Below are positions 5,192 through 27,446 of a stretch of 43,343 nucleotides of DNA, one piece after another. The notes below the pieces were generated by a model. The model saw only the letters and a program-made list of their open reading frames with translations, ran no database searches and had not been told where the DNA came from. The stretch is from Armatimonadota bacterium (GTDB lineage: Bacteria > Armatimonadota > Zipacnadia > Zipacnadales > UBA11051). Made by a program: the position numbers and the translations under genes. Location of the stretch: the NCBI GenBank assembly GCA_013178155.1, contig JABLXH010000105.1, forward strand, positions 1 to 43,343. The letters run 5' to 3'. Position 1 is the stretch's first letter. Every line of letters begins with the position of its first letter.

Positions 5192-6460
5192 TCACTGGCG
5201 GCTGATAACACGGTGCGTGACCAACAGCAGCACCACTCCCAGCACGCCGCTTACGCTGGCGATGAGGAAGGGAAGAGTGGAAGAGAATCCGGGAGTGTCG
5301 GGGGTCTGGATGGCCCGGCTGAGCACCATGAAGAGCCAACCGCCCAGGCCGGACAGCATCACCGTCAGCGAGATGGCCGGGGCTCGTCGCTCCTCGGGCA
5401 CCAGCTCCGAGATGAAGCCGGTCTGACTCCAGCGGATGAGCTGACGCACCATCTCAAAGAGTCCGGCCGAGAGGATGAGCACCCATGCGTTGGGCGCGAT
5501 CCCGGTGAGCAGTTGGCAGACGGTAAAGGCAGCGAGGATCAGAGCGCCGGTGACGCGGTTGGCCTGGCGTCCCGCGAGGAGGCCGATGAGCAGCCCGCCT
5601 AGCAACTGACCTACATAGCCGGCCGACTGCAATAGCGAGAAGCCGTGGTCGGCGGAGCCCACGATGAGCCCAATGTGGGGTTCGGCGGCCCTATAGGCGC
5701 GGTAGACGTTTGTGGCCTGAAAGACCGGGCCGGTCAGCAGCCCCAGCGACAGGACCGTGGCTGCGAAGCGCTTTGAGCGCAGCAGGCTCGGTATTCCCGC
5801 GGTGAGCGAGTCCCCCGACGCCGCCCCTGGCGGAACGGGGTCACGGCCGTAGGCTCCGCGCTGTCCCCACAGCAGCACCATCACGCTGGCGATGGCGGCC
5901 ACGCCGGCGTAGAAAATGAGCAAGTCGTGGAAGTCTGCCGCCCCTGCGCCCGCCGCCTTGGCTCCGGTGCCGATCAGCAGCCGCCCGATCTGGGGCGCCA
6001 CCGCCGCTCCCAGCGCCACCGCCGTCATCGTCGAGGCGTTGGACAGGCTCTTGCGGCGGTGAGGCACGATCTGCGCCAGGGAGATGCCGCCGATCCAGAT
6101 CAGCGCCGCCACACTGCCGTACCACAGGGCCGCCAGGTCCAGTACATACAGCGACCAGGGCCCGGCCAGGGGGATGGCATAGAGGATGCCAGGGAGCAGC
6201 ACATAGAACAGCAGTCCCGAGGCCCACGCCCGGCGCTCGCCGATGCGGCTGGCTACCACCGCCGCGATGGCCGGGCCGCACATCCAGGCGAAGATGGAAC
6301 GCGTGCCCCAGCGTTCCCAGGCGGAGTCCGGCAGCCCGGCCGCTGGGAAGTACAGCGGGAGCGCGTACTCCAGGAGAGAAGAGCACAGGAAGCTCAGGCC
6401 GGCGGCCAGGGCCACGATGCGCAAGCGCGCGGTGCCGGCCAGGTCAGGCTGGCATGGCAT
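5192..6460 (-). CDS. MFS-type transporter
   Basis: A 422-aa, very hydrophobic protein with about 12 predicted membrane helices in two halves. These are separated by a hydrophilic loop around residues 205-225 (RGAYGRDPVPPGAASGD). The basic cytoplasmic loop after helices 4-5 (VPHRRKSLSNAS) and a second one (VPEERRAPAIS) resemble major facilitator loops. The substrate cannot be read from sequence; nearby glycan genes make a sugar or glycoside plausible. There is only one usable ATG (6460), with a weak ribosome site. An AT-rich region separates it from the Ig-domain gene downstream. Confidence 0.8.
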   Translation of the reverse strand: MPCQPDLAGTARLRIVALAAGLSFLCSSLLEYALPLYFPAAGLPDSAWERWGTRSIFAWMCGPAIAAVVASRIGERRAWASGLLFYVLLPGILYAIPLAGPWSLYVLDLAALWYGSVAALIWIGGISLAQIVPHRRKSLSNASTMTAVALGAAVAPQIGRLLIGTGAKAAGAGAADFHDLLIFYAGVAAIASVMVLLWGQRGAYGRDPVPPGAASGDSLTAGIPSLLRSKRFAATVLSLGLLTGPVFQATNVYRAYRAAEPHIGLIVGSADHGFSLLQSAGYVGQLLGGLLIGLLAGRQANRVTGALILAAFTVCQLLTGIAPNAWVLILSAGLFEMVRQLIRWSQTGFISELVPEERRAPAISLTVMLSGLGGWLFMVLSRAIQTPDTPGFSSTLPFLIASVSGVLGVVLLLVTHRVISRQ

Positions 6461-6570
6461 GGGTAGCTCAGTCGGCGTTGTGAAGATGACTGTGGTGACG
6501 GACCAACGCGTCCGGGGGATAGGTTAGACAGCGCCTACGCGTTACCTGCCAGACAACAGGCCCCATAGCG

Positions 6571-6609
6571 CGCCCAGCCAGGGCAAGCCGCGCTTCCCCT
6601 GGCTGGGCG
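6571..6609 (-). terminator. Hairpin downstream of the prepilin-like gene
   Basis: A perfect 13-bp inverted repeat (CGCCCAGCCAGGG at 6571-6583 with CCCTGGCTGGGCG at 6597-6609, 13-nt loop) starts about 20 bp after the prepilin-like stop at 6630 on the minus strand. There is no T-run. The rest of the 6461-6629 gap shows nothing else I can name. Confidence 0.45.
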
Positions 6610-6629
6610 GTTGCTAACGTCACGGTTGG

Positions 6630-7242
6630 TTACTTGGCGTAGTTGACGATGTGGTCCGCCATCCACGCATCGTTGAACACAGCGCTGGCGGGGTACCACT
6701 TCGCATGACCGTCACAGAAGTTCACGTTGCTGCCGCCGTTGTGTCGGGTGTTGGTGTCGACGCAGACCGAGGGGGTGCAGTGAGCAGCGCAGGCGTTAGC
6801 GTAGGCGATCTCCCAGGCACAGGCCAGGAACATCGCCGAGTCCGCCACGAACACAATCTCCGCAGGCCGCGGCATGGAGCCGATGGAGATCCCCTTGGTG
6901 TGCACGCACCAGTGCGGACAGAGGAAGCAGGAGTTGATACCGTAGCCGTTGTCGTTGGGACGAGTGGGGCACTTGAAAATCTGGGTGTTCTTCACGTAGG
7001 GCTGCACCAGGTCATACCAGTTGCGGGGCGGAGTGCTGGAGCGATCGCCCTCCGGCACACACTCACTCGTAGTCCTGGGCGTACATCAGCATCCCCAGCC
7101 CGATCTGCTTCAGGTTCGACAAACAGGACGTCTGGCGCGCCTTCTCCCGGGCCTTGGCGAAGACGGGGAAGAGGATCGCGGCCAGGATCGCGATGATCGC
7201 GATGACAACCAACAACTCGATTAGAGTGAACCCCTTGCGCAT
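6630..7242 (-). pseudogene. Prepilin-like H-X9-DG protein, frameshifted
   Basis: The start at 7242 has AGGAGG seven bases upstream. The product opens with a class III prepilin leader: a short basic MRKG, then F-T-L-I-E with the conserved Glu at mature position 5, and a hydrophobic helix. [12 protein letters not shown] and [17 protein letters not shown] follow, then a TGA at 7065-7063. The other half continues in a second frame (CVPEGDRSS, WYDLVQPYVKNTQIFKCP) and ends with the H-X9-DG box RHNGGSNVNFCDG. Removing one base, for instance T at 7065, joins both halves as AQDYEECVPEGD and gives about 203 aa, a normal size for the family. These pseudopilin-like proteins are processed by a prepilin peptidase; their function is poorly known. 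It is either a sequencing indel or a recent pseudogene. Confidence 0.8.
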
Positions 7243-10057: not shown

Positions 10058-10203
10058 CACCTCACCCCCGACCCCTCTCCAAGGAGCATGCGAGCAAGCT
10101 CAGCGTAGAGAGGGGGAAGGCGACAGCGATGCCGTTCGGCGTGCTACGCCTGCCCATTGAGCTTTCCCGCGAGCTCCTGGAGAGGGGGCCGGGGGATTGG
10201 GTC
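10058..10203. repeat. Intergenic repeat with inverted ends
   Basis: This fills most of the 316-bp gap before the sulfatase. The left end CCCCCGACCCCTCTCC (10065-10080) is a near-perfect inverted copy of the right end GGAGAGGGGGCCGGGGG (10179-10195); a shorter arm GAGAGGGG lies at 10108-10115. A 27-bp block at 10058-10084 recurs with two mismatches at 28753-28779. It looks like a small non-coding dispersed element (REP or MITE-like). No ORF or transposase is present. Confidence 0.6.
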
Positions 10204-10267
10204 AACGAGGCAGGGCGCTGGTCCCCTCCCGGCGAACCGCGACCCAACTCCGTCGCGGAGGTGCATC

Positions 10268-11611
10268 ATGGCTGACTCCCGACCCAACATCGTCTTCTTC
10301 TTCACCGACCAGCAGCGCTGGGACACCTGCGGGTGCTACGGCCAGCGGCTGCCGGTGACCCCTAACCTGGACCAGATGGCCGCCGAAGGTGTGCGCTTCG
10401 CCAATGCCTTCACCTGCCAGCCGGTCTGCGGGCCGGCGCGGGCGGCGCTACAGACCGGGCGCTACCCCGCGGTCTACGGCTGCCACACCAACAACCGCGC
10501 CCTGCCTCTGGATACGACAGCCATTGCCCATCGGCTATCCGCTGTGGGCTATGAGGTGGGTTACATCGGCAAGTGGCACCTGGCCTCCGGACCCGAGGAA
10601 ACTGTGAACTACCGCGAGGCGCCAGTGCCGCCGGAGCGCCGGGGCGGCTACAGGGACTACTGGCTGGCGGCCGATGTGCTGGAGTTCACCTCACATCCGT
10701 TTGAGGGGCACATGTTTGACGCCGCCGGCAACCGGGTCGAGTTTCGCGACCAGTACCGGGTGGACTGGCAGACCGACCGTGTGCTGGACTACCTCGATAC
10801 CCGTGAAGGCCGGCGGCCCTTCTTCCTGTTTGTCTCCTACATTGAGCCACATCACCAGAACGACATGAAACGCTATGTGGGGCCGCCGGGGTCGGACCGG
10901 CGGTGGGCCCGGTACGAGCCGCCGGGAGACCTGGCTCACGCGGCCGGGGACTGGCGCGAGAACTACCCGGACTATCTGGGAGCCATCAACGCGCTGGATA
11001 GCGGACTGGGGCGGGTGCGCGAGAAGCTGGCCCAGATGGGTATGGCCGACGACACGCTCGTCATCTTCACGAGCGACCACGGTAGTCATTTCCGCACCCG
11101 CAATGCCGAGTATAAGCGCAGTTGCCACGACGGCTGCCTGCGCATCCCGCTGGTGGTCTGCGGACCGGGGTTCCGCGGAGGAATCGTGCGGGAGGAACTG
11201 GCCAGCCTGATCGACGTGCCGCCGACGGTCCTCGAGGCGGGTGGCGCGGACGTGCCGGGCGACTTCCACGGCCGGCCCCTGCAGGAGGCCGTGGCGGGCG
11301 CCCCGGATTGGCCGGATGATGTCTTCGCCCAACTCAGCGAAAGCCAAGTGGGGCGCTGTGTGCGCACGCGACGGTGGAAGTACTCGGTGACGCGTCACCC
11401 CTTGGCCGATGGTGATCTGGCTCTCCCCTGGTCCGACACCTACGTGGAGGATTTCCTGTACGACCTGGAGGCGGACCCCCACGAACAGCACAACCTGGTC
11501 CTGGAGCCGGGGTATGGAGAAGTGCGGGCAGAGCTGCGGTCCCGGCTGCTCCACTGGATCGCGCGCACTGAGGGCCAGCACCCGGAGATCGTCCCGGCCG
11601 TCGGGAAGTAG
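10268..11611 (+). CDS. Type I sulfatase
   Basis: A 447-aa protein of the alkaline-phosphatase-superfamily sulfatases. Metal-site start RPNIVFFFTDQQRWD gives the first Asp ligand at residue 14. The sulfatase signature CGPARAALQTG places Cys54 in C-x-P-x-R; this Cys is converted to formylglycine by a maturase. GKWHL and TSDHG segments follow. The C-terminus has the usual DLEADPHEQHNL. No signal peptide is apparent, so it may act in the cytoplasm on imported sulfated sugars. The start at 10268 has GGAGGT at 10257-10262. Only 28 bp separate it from the sialidase/GH18 fusion gene, suggesting one operon. The natural substrate cannot be read. Confidence 0.92.
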   Translation: MADSRPNIVFFFTDQQRWDTCGCYGQRLPVTPNLDQMAAEGVRFANAFTCQPVCGPARAALQTGRYPAVYGCHTNNRALPLDTTAIAHRLSAVGYEVGYIGKWHLASGPEETVNYREAPVPPERRGGYRDYWLAADVLEFTSHPFEGHMFDAAGNRVEFRDQYRVDWQTDRVLDYLDTREGRRPFFLFVSYIEPHHQNDMKRYVGPPGSDRRWARYEPPGDLAHAAGDWRENYPDYLGAINALDSGLGRVREKLAQMGMADDTLVIFTSDHGSHFRTRNAEYKRSCHDGCLRIPLVVCGPGFRGGIVREELASLIDVPPTVLEAGGADVPGDFHGRPLQEAVAGAPDWPDDVFAQLSESQVGRCVRTRRWKYSVTRHPLADGDLALPWSDTYVEDFLYDLEADPHEQHNLVLEPGYGEVRAELRSRLLHWIARTEGQHPEIVPAVGK

Positions 11612-11639: not shown

Positions 11640-13874
11640 ATGGTGCTGTCCCTGCTGATCATCACCGGTGTCGCGATGGCCTCACTGGCCACTGCCCAGG
11701 AGCCTGAGTCCCTGCCCTGGAAGGTCAACCGCCCCCTCGTGCTGGTGAGGAAGGAAGTGTACCGCCCAAACGAGCGTCCTGGCGCGGCGATGATGGTCTC
11801 GGTGCAGTACGTGGGACCGAAGCTGCAGCGCCGCGAGGTGCATGCCCACGAGATAGCCAGTGACGTGGGCGGGGACATCCGCGCGCGCTGGTCCGCGGAT
11901 AACGGCCGCACCTGGTCGGTCTTTGTGCCCGTTCAGCCCTCCAACAACGTGGACTATGGTGGCGTCACCGTATGGGAAGGCGAGGGGTGCAGCGCGTACG
12001 ACCCCAAAGCCGACGTGCTCGTGCAGGCCTGGCTGCGGCAGATCGCGGTGGGTGGGCTCTACCACAACTTCACGTACTGGCGCGTCTCCCGCGACCGCGG
12101 CCGGACCTGGACGAAGCCTGTGCTGTTTCGCTACGAGGAGGGCGCGGAGTTCGATCCGGCAAATCCACTGAGCCCGGATTTTCTAAACCATAATGAAGGC
12201 TATCCCGGCAGCAGTTTCCTGATCCGCAGCAACGGCGACCTGGTCTTCTGCCTGGCCCATGCCAACGCTCCTGGCGACCCGCGCAACAATGAGCGTGTCT
12301 GGCGCCAGGGCTCGGTGCTATTCCTGGGGCGCTGGGATCCCGAAGCGCAGACTTACCATTGGCAGCCGGGCGCGCGGACGGAAATCTCGCCGGAGGTATC
12401 GGCACGGGGACTGATGGAGCCGGAGGTGGCCGAGCTGCGCGACGGGCGGCTGCTGGTGGTGTGGCGCACCTCGACCCACGGCTGGGACGGCTCGGTGGCC
12501 CGATCGCCGGGGCACAAGCACTTCAGCCTCTCGACCGACGGCGGCAAGACTCTGTCTCCGGTGGCCGAGTGGAAGTATGACAACGGCACCAGCTTCTACT
12601 CCCCGTCGTCCTTTCATCGGATGCTTCGCCACAGCAACGGAAAGCTGTATTGGTTCGGCAACATCAGCGCCACGCCACCGGTGGGCAACTCGCCGCGGTA
12701 CCCGCTGGTCATCGCCGAGATAGATGAGGAGAAGGCGGCTCTGAAGCGAGACACCGTGACGGCAATAGACGATCGGCAGCCGGGCCAGCCGGAGATAGAG
12801 CTGTCCAATTTCTCGCTGCTGGAGAACCGTGAGACCCACGAGATCGAGCTCTATCTGGCGGGCTACGGGCAGAACCCGGTGGGCGCTGACTGTCTGAAGT
12901 ACACACTGACGCTGACCGAGGGGCTGAAGCCCCAGGCCGGGCGTGGCCTGGCGCCGTGGTTCGTCTACCAGGGGGAAAGCAGCATCGAGGCCCTGCGGCC
13001 CAACGCGGACCTGCTGCGCTCAATCAGCGTCTGCGGTGCGCCGACGGCACGGTTCGTCCAGAAGTGCCACGACTTGGGCCTGAAGGTACACCTGCTGGTG
13101 GGCATTGAGGGGCATCACGGGGAGCAGTTCAGCACGGCCAGCAAACGGCAGGAGCTGATTCGGGGCTACGTCGAGCGCTGCCAGGACCTCGGCGCCGACG
13201 GCATAGATCTGGACTACGAGAGCATGGACCGCGCGTGTCGGGACAGCTACAGCGCGCTCCTGCGCGAGGCCGCCTCGGCTCTGCATGCCGCCGGCAAGGA
13301 GCTGGCGATGTGTGTGAGCTATGTGATGTGCACATGGCGCAGTAACGCCGCGCCGGCGGCCAACCCGGAAGCGGCCATAGACGGGGGATGGTACGAACCG
13401 CAGGTCATCGGTGAGACCTGCGACCTGGTGCGGGTGATGTGCTATGACATGATAAGCCCCTCCAGCACGGCCGTGGGGCCGGTGAGCACCGCCCCCTGGG
13501 CCCGGGATGCCATGCGCTTCTGGAGTCGCTTCGTGCCCAGGGAAAGGCTGGTGATGGGGCTGCCCGCCTACAGCCGGGACTTCGTCCTCAACGGTAAGCG
13601 AGAGATCAACTCGCTCTATGCGCCCGCGCCAGACCTGGCCGGGGCCACCAACGTGCAGCGCCTCTGGATGCCCTACGAGGCCATACATCAGTACCGCTAC
13701 ACCTCAGCCGATGGCACGGAGCACCTGTTCCTGGCCAGCGATGCCGCGAGCACTCGCGCTCACCTGCACACAGCGACAGAGCTAGGGATCACGAACATTG
13801 GCTTCTGGCACTATGATGCCGTCACACCGGAGACCTGGCAGGCGGTGCGGGGGTGGGTGTATGGGCTGCGGTAG
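11640..13874 (+). CDS. Sialidase-like (Asp-box) and GH18 fusion protein
   Basis: A 744-aa protein with a possible signal peptide (MVLSLLIITGVAMASLATA). Residues about 30-425 form a sialidase-like beta-propeller with Asp boxes SADNGRTW, SRDRGRTW and STDGGKTL. From about 440, a TIM barrel of the chitinase type follows (LAPWFVYQGESS, then SISVCGA). It carries the GH18 catalytic motif D520-G-I-D523-L-D525-Y-E527, with Glu527 as expected acid, then LVRVMCYD and IGFWHYD. Both halves lie in one continuous frame with no stop between. Such a pair could act on a glycan with both a non-reducing cap and internal HexNAc links, but that is inference. It lies 28 bp after the sulfatase and ends 3 bp from the convergent GH116 gene. 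Confidence 0.87.
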   Translation: MVLSLLIITGVAMASLATAQEPESLPWKVNRPLVLVRKEVYRPNERPGAAMMVSVQYVGPKLQRREVHAHEIASDVGGDIRARWSADNGRTWSVFVPVQPSNNVDYGGVTVWEGEGCSAYDPKADVLVQAWLRQIAVGGLYHNFTYWRVSRDRGRTWTKPVLFRYEEGAEFDPANPLSPDFLNHNEGYPGSSFLIRSNGDLVFCLAHANAPGDPRNNERVWRQGSVLFLGRWDPEAQTYHWQPGARTEISPEVSARGLMEPEVAELRDGRLLVVWRTSTHGWDGSVARSPGHKHFSLSTDGGKTLSPVAEWKYDNGTSFYSPSSFHRMLRHSNGKLYWFGNISATPPVGNSPRYPLVIAEIDEEKAALKRDTVTAIDDRQPGQPEIELSNFSLLENRETHEIELYLAGYGQNPVGADCLKYTLTLTEGLKPQAGRGLAPWFVYQGESSIEALRPNADLLRSISVCGAPTARFVQKCHDLGLKVHLLVGIEGHHGEQFSTASKRQELIRGYVERCQDLGADGIDLDYESMDRACRDSYSALLREAASALHAAGKELAMCVSYVMCTWRSNAAPAANPEAAIDGGWYEPQVIGETCDLVRVMCYDMISPSSTAVGPVSTAPWARDAMRFWSRFVPRERLVMGLPAYSRDFVLNGKREINSLYAPAPDLAGATNVQRLWMPYEAIHQYRYTSADGTEHLFLASDAASTRAHLHTATELGITNIGFWHYDAVTPETWQAVRGWVYGLR

Positions 13875-13877
13875 GGA

Positions 13878-16454
13878 CTAGGTGAGCGTGACCCGCAGCG
13901 GTTTGCCGGGCGTGATCGTCACCGGCTCGGCAAATGACAGGCTAACCCCGCCCTTGACCTTCTCTGCCTTCAATCTGACCGCGGTCTCGCCCAGCATGGC
14001 CGTCGGCTTGCGCTTGCCCTTCAGGGCCACGTCCAGTCTCGCCAGGGTCAGCGAACCGGAAGCAACCTCGACGGTCACCGTCGCCTGTCGTCCGGAGACC
14101 TTCTGCGCATACGTCCCCCAGCCGCTGCCCACACAGAAGAAGCTGCGAAAGTCCTCGGGCTGCACGCGGGGAGCCATGCCCAGCCTCTTGTCAGGTGCGG
14201 AGTACGAGAAGCCCGAGAGCGCCGTCAGGAGGGCGTAGCTGGCCAGCGAGCGGGCGTAGTGGTGGCCGCACTCAAACTCGTCCCACGGGTTGCGTCGCTC
14301 GCCGGTGTGCCGGTCCCGGACCCCCTTGACGATGGCCAAGCCCTCCTCCACCATGCCCTCGTAGATGAGGTGGCTGGCGACCTGGTACTCGATGCCGCAC
14401 CAGACTTCATCGGCAAACCAGAAGGGATACCCGGGCCGCCCTCCGAGAGGCCAGGAAGCGATCAGCAGTCCGGCCTCGTCATTGAGAGCGTAGACCCTTA
14501 GCGAGCAGAAATGGTCGGTGAGGTCCGGCTTCCAGTTGTACCTGAAGATGGACTGCAGCGTCTTGCGGACATGCTTGCCGTTGTAAAGCTTGCCCAGGCC
14601 CAGCATCTCGGCATACCACTGGCCGATGAGCTGATCGGAGAGGCAGCCCTTGCCGAACTGCCAGCGCGGCCAGTCGGGGAACTTGTCGTCCATCCCGTGA
14701 TCTATGGACAACTGGCGCAGGTTGTCGGGCCAGCATTCGTGGGCGGTTGGGTTCACGATCTGCTCGTAGTACCGCCCATTGAAGAGCTTTTCGTCCGAGA
14801 AGGCGGCGCCCTGAGCGGCCAGGCGCCGGTAGGTCTCGGCACGCTCCGTGTCACCGAGGTGATCGGCCAGCTTCGCGGCGGAAGTCAGCGCGGCCAGGTA
14901 GAGGCTGCCCATCATCGTGTTGGGGCCCAGGAACTCCATGTCGTAGGTGTTGTGCTGCATTCCCTCCATCACCCCATCCCGGTCGGCGTCCCAGTACTTC
15001 CAGGCGAACTCCAGCGCCTTGACGCAGGAGGGCCAGATGCCGCGCAACCATTCGTCGTCGCCGGATATGAGCCACTCTCGATAGACCTGGATGACGGTAC
15101 CCATCTGGCCGTCGGCGGCAGGGTGAAAGCCCGTGCCGCCCCTGGTTCCCAGGGGTAGCGGCATGCGGAAGCAGACGAAACCGTCGTCCTGCATGGAGTT
15201 GGCCCACTCGGCCTGGCGGACCGAGCGCTGCAAGGCAGGGAAAAGGTAGGGGAGAGCCTGGGCGTAGTTCCAGACGTGGGTGCAGGTGCCCTCACAGCAG
15301 CCCACGGTGTCACTGCAGCCCTCGAAGCCATAGAACGTGCCATCGGTCAGGCGCAGACAGGTGTTGGTGCGCAGGATGGAGAGTTGGCTGCTGATGGCGT
15401 CGAGAGCCACCGCCGGCAGGGTGGAGGCAAAAAGGGTGTCGTGGAAGAGCTTCGTGTCTCCCAGCAGGCGCTCGAGGTTCTTTCCCACATACCTGCCCAC
15501 CGCCCAGGCATCCTCCCACTGCGTGGCATACCAGTTCTCCCAGGTGACGGGCTGGCCGTCCTCCGTCCGGGACCAATGAGGGTAGTTGGGGAAATGCCAG
15601 GTCAGGATGAACGGGATGGTCGCCTTCTGCCCCGGCAGCAGTTCAACCTCGACGCCCAGGGTGCCGCTGTGTCCTGTGCCCTGGCGCACCGGAGGCCAGC
15701 TTTCTTTCTCGGTAACCGCCTCCCAGAACTTGAGGATACGGTCGTCGTGCCACGAAGGCCAGACCCACGCCGTCGCGGCCGGCGTGGCCAGGGCCAGCGA
15801 GCCGCGGCGCGGATCAGCGCCCTCATGCTGGGTATTGCCCAGCACCAGGCCGGTGAGGCCGCCGGCGCGGCGGGACTTGTTCGTCCGGCCCGCCGCCTCC
15901 CCGATGTCATTGTACAGGTTGCCCATGACCGACACGCGCAGTGGTGTGTCGCCGCAGTTGCGGACCGTGTACATCAGCACGGCCACCGGTATACTCGAGT
16001 CGAAGTCGTTGAGGGGTATGAAGGGGCTCCAGGCTACCAGGTTGGCCTCGATGGGGAAACCCTCGTCGCGTAAGGCCACGTGCGCGAAGGGAAACTCCCC
16101 GCGGAAGGACACCTCGCGGAAGTGCGGCAGACCCTCGCCCGTCTCATGGCCAGCCGTGTGCCCGCCCCGGTTATACGAGCCGCCTTTGGGACCCTGGAGC
16201 ACCTTGGCCCTCGCGGCCTGGCCCTTGCCTGCAATCCGGACAAGGAAGAAGGCGTTCGGTAGCGTGCGTCCCTTGGCCGGGCGGTTCTGGATCTCCCAGT
16301 CGCGGAGTTGGCCCCAGCCACCCAGGCTGACCGAGCCGGTGCCGATGCCCCCCAGGGGGAAGGCAATCTCGTCGAGCTGGCGTCCGGTGTAGGTTCGCTG
16401 CGGCCCCATGCCCAGCAGGTCCTCGCGGCTGTAGGGGATGCTCTTCTTCGCCAT
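13878..16454 (-). CDS. GH116 (DUF608-type) glycosidase
   Basis: An 858-aa protein starting at ATG 16454, which has GGAGG seven bases upstream. The N-terminal domain opens with AFPLGGIGTGSVSLGGWG, typical of the GBA2-type N-domain. The catalytic (alpha/alpha)6 region has CCEGTCTHVWNYAQALPYLF with Glu388 as probable nucleophile. Then NTYDMEFLG with Asp505 as probable acid/base aligns with the TYDxW segment of human GBA2, followed by LYLAAL and LFNGRYY. Family members cleave beta-glucosides and beta-xylosides; the bacterial substrate is often a glycoside rather than glucosylceramide. No signal peptide, so probably cytoplasmic. Residue roles are by alignment from memory. Confidence 0.88.
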   Translation of the reverse strand: MAKKSIPYSREDLLGMGPQRTYTGRQLDEIAFPLGGIGTGSVSLGGWGQLRDWEIQNRPAKGRTLPNAFFLVRIAGKGQAARAKVLQGPKGGSYNRGGHTAGHETGEGLPHFREVSFRGEFPFAHVALRDEGFPIEANLVAWSPFIPLNDFDSSIPVAVLMYTVRNCGDTPLRVSVMGNLYNDIGEAAGRTNKSRRAGGLTGLVLGNTQHEGADPRRGSLALATPAATAWVWPSWHDDRILKFWEAVTEKESWPPVRQGTGHSGTLGVEVELLPGQKATIPFILTWHFPNYPHWSRTEDGQPVTWENWYATQWEDAWAVGRYVGKNLERLLGDTKLFHDTLFASTLPAVALDAISSQLSILRTNTCLRLTDGTFYGFEGCSDTVGCCEGTCTHVWNYAQALPYLFPALQRSVRQAEWANSMQDDGFVCFRMPLPLGTRGGTGFHPAADGQMGTVIQVYREWLISGDDEWLRGIWPSCVKALEFAWKYWDADRDGVMEGMQHNTYDMEFLGPNTMMGSLYLAALTSAAKLADHLGDTERAETYRRLAAQGAAFSDEKLFNGRYYEQIVNPTAHECWPDNLRQLSIDHGMDDKFPDWPRWQFGKGCLSDQLIGQWYAEMLGLGKLYNGKHVRKTLQSIFRYNWKPDLTDHFCSLRVYALNDEAGLLIASWPLGGRPGYPFWFADEVWCGIEYQVASHLIYEGMVEEGLAIVKGVRDRHTGERRNPWDEFECGHHYARSLASYALLTALSGFSYSAPDKRLGMAPRVQPEDFRSFFCVGSGWGTYAQKVSGRQATVTVEVASGSLTLARLDVALKGKRKPTAMLGETAVRLKAEKVKGGVSLSFAEPVTITPGKPLRVTLT

Positions 16455-16583
16455 GGTGGTGCCTCCATCGGTCGCCTTACCGAGGCGCGGCGGTTGCGCA
16501 GAAGGTCCGCGCAGGCGCGGCAGTCCCCCGAGCGCCCGGCTGGCCGTCAGCAACTGTTAGCCTTGCGCGAGGTGTTCCGGACT

Positions 16584-25124: not shown

Positions 25125-26282
25125 CTAGTCCACCTTCAGGCGGAAGGCCAGCGCCTCGATCTGCTGGTCCACTGTGCCGTCGTAGGGGTCGTCGCTGCCG
25201 CGGTGGCCGACGCAGAAGATACGGCCATCGGGCAGTTGCACGCTGGATGGGTAGTAGGACGTGTGCAGGTCCAGGTCGGCCCAGGTGGCGCCGGCGTCGG
25301 CGGTCCACGAGACGTTGCTGGTGGCGATGTGCAGGGCCACCCCCTCCCGGGCCCAGAGCACATCCGGCATCCCGCTGTGCGGGAAGGGTGCCATCCCCCG
25401 GCTCTCCACCGCGTAGGTGTCGCCCACGGGCCTCAGCACCGCCTGACGACGGTCCGGCACATTGGTCCGGTTGACGAGCAGCAGCCGCCCATCGGGCAGC
25501 TCCGCCACATCGCTCTCCTCGGTGGGAGCCGCGCCGTCGGCTGCGGTCATAACGACCACGGGTTCCGACCAGCTCTTCCCACCATCACCCGACAGCCAAA
25601 GCGCCGCCTCGATGTGCGCCAGGCCCTGGCGAAAAGTGCGCACCTCGTCAGTGAGCCTGATCAGCCCCCCGACCACCAGGATACGGCCGTCGCGAAGCAC
25701 GCGCACTCGTTTGGGGAGCGTCAACGCCCGCCTTTCGTCCATGAGAAGGATGGGGCCGCTCCAGGTCCGGCCCCCGTCCTCCGAGCGCTGGACGTGGCCG
25801 GTCTGGGGTACATCGTAGAAGGGCAGATACATGCCCCAGACCGTCCGCAGTATCGTCCCGTCAGGCAGCACGGCATAGCCGCTGTACACGCCATTCATGG
25901 GCGTGTGAAAGGGCTCCGACCATAGCTGCGTCCAGGTCTGACCGGCGTCGCGGGATTCCAGCGTGATGAGCTGCTGGATGGTGCCGGTCATGTCATACCC
26001 GACAGAGTGGTTGGCGGGCGGCCAGCCCAGGGCCTCCTGGACGCTCCTGGGGGCCATCGGGCGGCCGGTGAGCGGTCCCGTGGCCTGGTGGAAGGACACC
26101 CGCAGGGCCCCGTCAGGCATGAGCCAGGTGCTGACCCAGCAGGTGTAGCCTGGCGTCTGCGGTGAGTGGTAGACCGTGGACTGCTGCACGTCCGTGGCGG
26201 TGACGGTCATGGGAGCACCTCCGGTGCAGACAATCGGTAACAGCGCAAGAGCGATAGGCCAAGGGGCGGCGCGGGTGAACAT
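25125..26282 (-). CDS. Sialidase-like Asp-box glycosidase
   Basis: A 385-aa beta-propeller with four Asp boxes (SRDAGQTW, SEDGGRTW, SGDGGKSW, TADAGATW). It belongs to the exo-alpha-sialidase-like proteins that release terminal acidic sugars, although many such proteins act on other substrates. Two starts are possible. ATG 26282 has GGGAG upstream and gives a hydrophobic signal-like stretch (APWPIALALLPIVCTGGAP). ATG 26210 has a much better GGAGGT and would give a cytoplasmic protein. I list the longer form but the shorter one is a real alternative. It is divergent from the epimerase gene. Confidence 0.8.
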   Translation of the reverse strand: MFTRAAPWPIALALLPIVCTGGAPMTVTATDVQQSTVYHSPQTPGYTCWVSTWLMPDGALRVSFHQATGPLTGRPMAPRSVQEALGWPPANHSVGYDMTGTIQQLITLESRDAGQTWTQLWSEPFHTPMNGVYSGYAVLPDGTILRTVWGMYLPFYDVPQTGHVQRSEDGGRTWSGPILLMDERRALTLPKRVRVLRDGRILVVGGLIRLTDEVRTFRQGLAHIEAALWLSGDGGKSWSEPVVVMTAADGAAPTEESDVAELPDGRLLLVNRTNVPDRRQAVLRPVGDTYAVESRGMAPFPHSGMPDVLWAREGVALHIATSNVSWTADAGATWADLDLHTSYYPSSVQLPDGRIFCVGHRGSDDPYDGTVDQQIEALAFRLKVD

Positions 26283-26411
26283 AGGACACTCCCTCTCTGT
26301 GGCGGCCGTCCCTTCCTCGGCACGGCCCCCTCGCCCTGCCTGACGCCCAAGAGGTGATGACGGCGACGCAGCGAACAGGTCCTGACCTCGTTGAGCAGGA
26401 GGGCTTCCTTG

Positions 26412-27446
26412 ATGAACGAACTCGGCATCTCCAAGATCGCCGTCTACGGCGGTAGCGGCAAACTGGGGCGCGCTCTCATCCGACACTTCCTCGGCCAGGG
26501 CGTGGCCGTCCGCGCCATGCACCACTCCACGCCTTTAGATATCACCCCCTGCCCGGTAGCCGGAGCTTCCAGTACCACCCCCGCCTCCCCGGTAGCCGGG
26601 GCTTCCAGCCCCGGCACGCTGGAGTCCATCCAGGGCGATGTCCGCAACCTGGACGACGTCAAGCGCGTCCTGGGCGACGCTGACGCCGTCTTTGCCCTGG
26701 CGACTACCAAGGAGGACCCGGAGACCTTCTTCGATGTGAGCCTGCGGGGCACTTTCAACATCCTGGAGGCGGCGCGGGAGACGCCCGTCAAGCAACTCAT
26801 CCTGGCCGGGGGCGACGCGGCGGTGGGCATCTGGTTCTACCCGCACCCCGAGCCCATTGATGAAACCCACCCCCTGATGGCCTACCCCGGCTACTACGCC
26901 TTCAGCAAGGTCATGGAGGAGGAGATGTTCCGCCAGTACCACTACCAGTACGGCCTGCCGACGACCATCCTGCGCATGTCCTGGATCTTTGAGAAGACGG
27001 ACATCCTGAACCACCTGTCTCTGCGCAATCTCAATCCCGCCGAGAAGGGCCACGGCTGGGATGATTACCTGACCGACGAGCTGCGCGAGATCATCGCCCG
27101 GGGCGAAAACCGCGTGCCGGTGCTTGTCAACCAGGACGGTGTGCCCTATACCCGCCACATCGTGCACCTGGACGATGTGGTCCACGCCTTCGACGTTGCT
27201 ACCGGCAACCCGGCGGCGATTGGCGAGACCTTCCACATCGCCGCTCCCAAGGCGTTCCGCTATGACCAGGCCGCCGCTTACCTGTCAGAGAAGACTGGGC
27301 TACCTACCTGCACCATCACCGCCTCAGGCTACCACAGCTTCGAGGTCAACATCAGCAAGGCCCGCCACGTCCTGGGCTACAACCCGCAGTACGACATCTA
27401 TGGCATCATTGACCGGGCGCTGGAGTGGCGGGCGGCCAACGCGTAG
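26412..27446 (+). CDS. NAD-dependent epimerase/dehydratase with repeat insertion
   Basis: A 344-aa extended short-chain dehydrogenase. The nucleotide loop is GGSGKLGRAL, YYAFSKVMEEE carries the catalytic Tyr and Lys (YxxxK), and RHIVHLDDVVHA is typical of sugar epimerases. Residues about 44-68 carry an insertion: PVAGASS occurs twice, 12 residues apart, encoded by an imperfect 36-bp tandem repeat. Without it the text would read STPLD...LESIQGDVRN, as in relatives. The start at 26412 has GGAGG about nine bases upstream. It is followed after 40 bp by the beta-helix gene, a probable operon. The substrate is likely a nucleotide sugar or sugar acid. Confidence 0.85.
   Translation: MNELGISKIAVYGGSGKLGRALIRHFLGQGVAVRAMHHSTPLDITPCPVAGASSTTPASPVAGASSPGTLESIQGDVRNLDDVKRVLGDADAVFALATTKEDPETFFDVSLRGTFNILEAARETPVKQLILAGGDAAVGIWFYPHPEPIDETHPLMAYPGYYAFSKVMEEEMFRQYHYQYGLPTTILRMSWIFEKTDILNHLSLRNLNPAEKGHGWDDYLTDELREIIARGENRVPVLVNQDGVPYTRHIVHLDDVVHAFDVATGNPAAIGETFHIAAPKAFRYDQAAAYLSEKTGLPTCTITASGYHSFEVNISKARHVLGYNPQYDIYGIIDRALEWRAANA
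26552..26608. repeat. 36-bp-period tandem repeat inside the epimerase gene
   Basis: Two copies of CCCGGTAGCCGGRGCTTCCAG, at 26552-26572 and 26588-26608, lie 36 bp apart, exactly 12 codons, so the frame is kept. The second is followed by CCCCGGC, pairing with GCCGGGGC as a short palindrome. This looks like a dispersed palindromic repeat that entered a coding region. Confidence 0.75.

Follow-up and report, generated by a model that had tools for sequence, protein, structure and literature searches.

The gene at 11640–13874 (+) of the window, by which is meant the whole stretch of 43,343 nt analysed here, encodes a protein of 744 residues in which a propeller of the sialidase fold is joined, in a single frame, to a GH18 domain. 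The fusion is genuine, since the identical domain order is found in a second genome, and the architecture is rare. With regard to function, a probability of about one half is given to the reading that this is a secreted protein whose propeller would trim or grip an acidic or sulfated amino-sugar glycan, which the GH18 domain would cut with the cooperation of a neighbouring sulfatase.

Architecture of the fused gene

An earlier note on this DNA had described one frame without a stop between its two domains, and the frame listing and translation agree with it, the frame having 744 codons and no internal stops. The frame is listed as an ORF of 821 residues starting at 11409, within the sulfatase gene; the start codon is likely the ATG at 11640, with AGGAAAGAGG just before it. 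Codon-phase G+C is unbroken across 11640–13739, the junction included, with a third-position G+C of 0.72–0.92 in all 14 blocks of 150 nt.

The protein has a signal-peptide-like N-terminus at residues 1–20 (11640–11699, +), which, as judged from the translation, is hydrophobic and ends in ATAQ; in the AF2 model a helix spans residues 2–14. The sialidase-fold propeller, with its Asp boxes and BNR_2 match, occupies about residues 31–427 (11730–12920, +) according to Pfam, GH33 profile matches and a structural model. It is followed by a linker, GLKPQAGRG, at about residues 428–436 (12921–12947, +), placed by alignment of the two fused proteins, and by the (beta/alpha)8 domain of GH18 at residues 437–744 (12948–13871, +), as placed by Pfam, motif invariants, profile and VIA-align. 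In the alignment, the final strand of the propeller is separated from the opening strand of GH18 by some 10 variable residues, and the linker sequence differs between the two proteins.

The Pfam domain-architecture search that had been proposed in the earlier note places both halves above their cut-offs: BNR_2 (PF13088) matches residues 134–362 with 35.3 bits against a cut-off of 31.4 (E 1e-8), and GH18 (PF00704) matches residues 476–669 with 64.2 bits against 29.6 (E 2.2e-17). Both matches are far above chance. NCBIfam returned no model for the fused protein. Three Asp boxes had been reported within the first 425 residues; two of them are exact, SADNGRTW (85–92) and SRDRGRTW (150–157), while the third, STDGGKTL (298–305), is degenerate and has no Trp.

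Authenticity and rarity of the fusion

The second fused protein (L009/L028) is encoded on JACPDV010000347.1 of 'Armatimonadetes bacterium NC_groundwater_318' (G094) by a gene of 736 aa. It has the same domain order and its match spans residues 12–740 at 69–70% identity, and because of this identity the second record is not a copy of that of the window. It is the sole other whole-length match in the protein search, which covered 291 genomes of the Armatimonadota, a phylum that has received little study, and the 151 nearest, and the fusion is present in 2 of the 291. The neighbours of the two fused genes are unrelated; indeed, the gene ahead of the G094 copy reads as a threonine synthase and not as a sulfatase.

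An assembly error or a lost stop that merged two adjacent genes, which the earlier note had named as the finding to guard against, is extremely improbable. Separate homologues of each half do exist, and the nearest propeller relative (L010, 77–78% identical) stands alone. Against this, the codon phase is continuous, the halves are adjacent as two genes in no relative among the stretches examined, and the G094 gene, joined in the same way and lying among other genes, refutes the idea.

Beyond the Armatimonadota, no match to both halves was found in 392 genomes from the phylum of the Phycisphaerae genome G296 (at most two candidates scored per genome), or in 68 genomes from the phylum of the Hydrogenedentota genome G295. 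In viral contigs, 37 stretches fit a pattern and none of them encodes a relative. Among the phages (2 records) and plasmids (12 records) with a match, none covers 80% of the query, and for both phages and 10 of the 12 plasmids the matches listed are confined to the GH18 half, at query positions of at least 425. The impression that this order is no standard architecture is borne out by the count of 2 in 291 and also by the literature, since no publication on a propeller–GH18 fusion was found among open-licence papers, as judged by titles and abstract openings. In the portion consulted of the Zipacnadia paper PMC10290634, the terms sialidase, sulfatase and GH33 are absent.

The GH18 half

The motif DxxDxDxE is intact, with DGIDLDYE standing at 520–527 of the translation just as had been noted, and its catalytic Glu is Glu527. 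In the alignment of GH18 relatives (A4, which omits L043 with its broken frame; A5 omits both L038 and L043), neither of the first two Asp varies in any of the 15 rows, nor does the Glu, nor MCYD at 600–603. In L031 (JALGTR010000020.1, gene at 5944–6957) Asn stands in for the third Asp, the motif reading DGIDVNFE, and the catalytic Glu is kept. The omitted L043 (JAJBTC010000145.1, 5908–6923) is a GH18 relative lying in two adjoining frames of 149 and 190 aa, by frameshift or assembly error.

A profile of 15 GH18 relatives matches 4wiw, 5jh8, 4q6t and SleL/YaaH (4s3k) with E values from 1.2e-22 to 2.2e-21, and the AF2 model of this half aligns with GH18 chains at Z 27–28 over about 280–290 residues (VIA-align); model and alignment both show a (beta/alpha)8 barrel. 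It is the sole GH18 match in the source assembly (5.5 Mb, 211 contigs). With the chitinases and spore cortex hydrolases of the 4wiw, 5jh8 and SleL/YaaH kind, the domain shares a whole-domain profile match, the fold (Z 27.3–27.5) and DxxDxDxE, whereas it differs from them in its N-terminal propeller and in forming a subfamily of its own with a conserved VRVMCYDM segment. In the SleL/YaaH spore cortex hydrolases, moreover, LysM domains accompany the GH18 domain; the fused protein has no LysM among its Pfam matches up to E 1, and in this it departs from the SleL/YaaH type.

The propeller and its comparison with GH33

As a single sequence the propeller has no match in the PDB up to E 10. A propeller profile of 23 rows, by contrast, finds GH33 sialidases through several repeat-sized stretches, the best with E 1.2e-14. 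A separate propeller model was built because fold searches with the whole model had probed the GH18 half only; drawn from three input sequences, it has a pLDDT of 66.6 and a pTM of 0.74, with residues 42–102 below 50. Sialidases rank first against it in both Foldseek and VIA-align, the latter giving Z 22.1 and rmsd 3.8 over 287 aligned residues with 1w8o.

The yardstick for GH33 was a set of four Bacteroides BNR proteins, L061 (G292), L063, L065 and L066 (G291), of which L061 is a true GH33 by its PDB match (E 1.7e-246 to Sialidase26). The profile of the propeller matches that of this set with E 1.4e-14. Within the set R208 (of the RIP motif), D233, E403, R419, R483 and Y514 are all invariant, and these we take, from general knowledge of GH33, to be the six catalytic positions. 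The assignment draws also on the description of the GH33 site in an excerpt of PMC12018670. The profile alignment pairs D75 with D233, E260 with E403, R276 with R419 and R353 with R483; in other words, the propeller retains four of the six canonical positions, as Asp75, Glu260, Arg276 and Arg353. None of the 12 close relatives departs from these four or from R64, R83 and N390, and E260, R276 and R353 are invariant in all 23 rows of alignment A3.

As for the other two positions, propeller residues 20–110 contain no RIP motif, and the strand matching it has no invariant Arg among the 12 close relatives; R64 or R83 could conceivably stand in for the RIP arginine. No Tyr occurs between residues 355 and 404, a segment in which S389 and N390 are invariant in the 12 close relatives. 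N390 falls at the place of the tyrosine when the strands that follow (Y405, Y529) are aligned by hand; the C-terminal profile alignment is non-significant there (hhalign E 0.13–0.39), and for this reason the exact counterpart of the tyrosine is one that we infer. Since neither the RIP arginine nor the Tyr was found, sialidase chemistry is not to be assumed and, judged by its sequence, the propeller is not a canonical sialidase. Indeed, with the GH33 sialidases of Micromonospora viridifaciens (1eur/1w8o) and P. gingivalis (PG_0352, 8t1z) it shares the fold, the Asp boxes and the positions of the Asp, the Glu and two Arg, but it is ~15% identical to them, is without the RIP arginine and a Tyr at the nucleophile's spacing, and is fused to GH18.

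A precedent is the GH181 sialidase Amuc_1547, which is described in the same excerpt as an active enzyme of the sialidase fold although one Arg and the Tyr are lacking; GH181 of this type has an Arg-Arg-Gln triplet, with His/Gln replacing Tyr (PMC12018670). The likeness to the window propeller is one of description, the distance from the Glu to the first listed Arg being 16 residues in both, and the excerpt mentions no GH18 domain for Amuc_1547.

The halves as separate genes

Separate, secreted relatives of each half occur across several phyla. Stand-alone propellers are, besides L010 (G014, 443 aa), L011 of G026 (462 aa, 63–65% identity), L081 of G740 (61–62%), L029 of a planctomycetote (441 aa, 55–58%) and L071 and L072 of G296 and G295 (47–52%). 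Stand-alone GH18 genes, which have hydrophobic or lipoprotein-like N-termini of their own, include L030/L012 and L031/L013 (57–59%), the Hydrogenedentota copy L032 (55–57%), the Phycisphaerae copy L033 (52–54%) and ten Bacteroidota loci (36–39%), the broken L043 among them. Both halves occur in G295 and in G296, in each case on different contigs. The two fused genomes excluded, close GH18 copies (at least 50% identity) are found in four genomes; a close propeller accompanies them in G295 and G296, and distant propeller relatives only in G020 and G015. When 12 propeller genomes were searched with the GH18 half, matches came from two of them, at 38% and 28% identity, and no propeller relative was found in the three Bacteroidota genomes with a GH18 relative that were searched. 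The linkage of propeller and GH18 across genomes is suggestive only. G294–G296 entered the sample through a matching locus of their own.

The propellers of the two fused proteins are not sisters in the tree of this half: L010, a stand-alone protein, branches with that of the window within the fused pair (99/96 and 100/99). The AU test disfavours a tree in which the two fused proteins are held together (p 0.011, with L010 taken without its last 22 residues and the group named after the first tree had been seen). For GH18, the tree unites the two fused proteins at an unsupported node (67/30). The first trees were built from 14 rows for the propeller, drawing on 12 of the 22 A3 rows other than the window's, with L015 standing there twice, and from 12 of the 15 available for GH18. 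The simplest history is a single fusion after which L010 lost its GH18 part; two separate fusion events, or transfer of the gene, are alternatives. A GH18 remnant behind L010 was considered and is not claimed: its tail, GRDGRAQPW, resembles the junction, yet the DNA score of 20 lies at the shuffle mean (20.8) and the protein score gives p 0.09. A convergent gene starts after the L010 stop, and G014 (86% complete) has no GH18 match.

The propeller subfamily also occurs in frame with other domains and, on this account, seems to be a portable module. L076 (G615:C417, 1337–4048, −) carries a close propeller relative (59–61% identity) behind a PQQ_2/BamB-type propeller, the joint being a linker rich in Glu, Ala, Pro and Gly, and L078 (G426:C244, 43–2718, +) has a propeller of 39–41% identity behind an alkaline-ceramidase-type domain (PF04734).

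The sulfatase and other neighbours

As the earlier note had observed, the fused gene sits behind a sulfatase. This gene, of S1 type (10157–11611, +; PF00884, 1.1e-49), lies 28 nt upstream and is a probable operon partner; its best PDB match is the GlcNAc-6-sulfatase 5g2v (7.3e-42), narrowly above others. On the other side lies a convergent GH116-type gene (13878–16553, −; PF12215 and PF04685), and the window flanks also hold genes of GH4, MFS and ROK/MarR types (Pfam).

The hint that the target may be sulfated gains support from the Hydrogenedentota GH18 relative L032, which likewise stands directly behind a sulfatase, ending 68 nt before it. This second sulfatase is 28% identical to that of the window. 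Its nearest relatives of solved structure are 5g2v (E 1.6e-137), to which it is far closer than the window's sulfatase, and the mucin-desulfating sulfatase 7p24 (E 3.3e-131). The GH18 gene of G015 has a sulfatase at a distance of ~4 kb, and none was found among the scanned neighbours of G094 (5 proteins), G020 (3) and L033 (3). The sulfate link, in other words, recurs and is not universal. Among the Bacteroidota copies, L035, the only one scanned for SusD, has SusD next but one; BACON proteins lie immediately upstream of L035, L036 and L040, arylsulfotransferase-like proteins lie upstream in L034 and L042, and a GH20 adjoins L034, the Prolixibacter copy.

Proposed function

On the reading given most weight here, two genes that other bacteria keep apart became fused end to end, and the product is presumably exported. 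The propeller would recognise, and probably remove, a terminal acidic sugar, sialic-acid-like or otherwise carboxylated, by means of a non-canonical active site, thereby exposing or holding the amino-sugar chain for the GH18 domain. The latter would cleave beta-N-acetylglucosaminide bonds, and the adjoining sulfatase would strip sulfate off the same glycan. The 'two-step enzyme' of the earlier note, with both domains catalytic, is a hypothesis, because the RIP arginine and the Tyr were not found in the propeller.

It is possible, if somewhat doubtful, that the propeller has given up catalysis altogether and acts as a carbohydrate-binding or scaffold module anchoring GH18 to its substrate. The failure to find the RIP arginine and the Tyr fits with such a role, as do the in-frame partners of L076 and L078, which are what would be expected of a portable module, and the 22 BNR_2 matches against one GH18 in the source genome; yet the seven residues invariant in all 12 close relatives go beyond what a scaffold needs, and stand-alone secreted propellers exist. 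A more far-reaching reading, held to be rather improbable, is that the propeller is a working enzyme of an undescribed family of the sialidase clan, which would take an acidic cap different from ordinary sialic acid off sulfated GlcNAc glycans in a coupled uncap-then-cut reaction, with Asp75 as acid/base, Glu260 and two arginines kept, the RIP arginine gone and the conserved Asn390 at the tyrosine's place. An ordinary GH33 sialidase, which would make the whole a sialidase-chitinase, is quite unlikely: GH33 sialidases do lead the profile and fold matches and four canonical residues are kept, but the RIP arginine is absent and no tyrosine was found at the nucleophile's spacing.

Environmental genomes can hold many sialidase-fold proteins with no assigned substrate, as the 22 BNR_2 matches here (E up to 0.001) illustrate. 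For one branch of these, the fusion to GH18, the finding of both parts as separate genes in G295 and G296, which belong to two further phyla, and the sulfatase neighbours together point to a concrete substrate class, namely acidic or sulfated GlcNAc glycans.

Further propeller genes

Another BNR_2 propeller gene, strongly diverged, lies in the window at 25128–26525 (−; 37.4 bits) and matches the family of the first with E 2.9e-10 (hhalign). Elsewhere in the source genome, at G000:C131:18295-19495, a propeller relative lies as two adjoining pieces with stops (L006, L008), and is probably decayed or frame-shifted. Tandem propeller genes of the same family, of 459 and 410 aa, are found as L015 and L016 (G002, G006).
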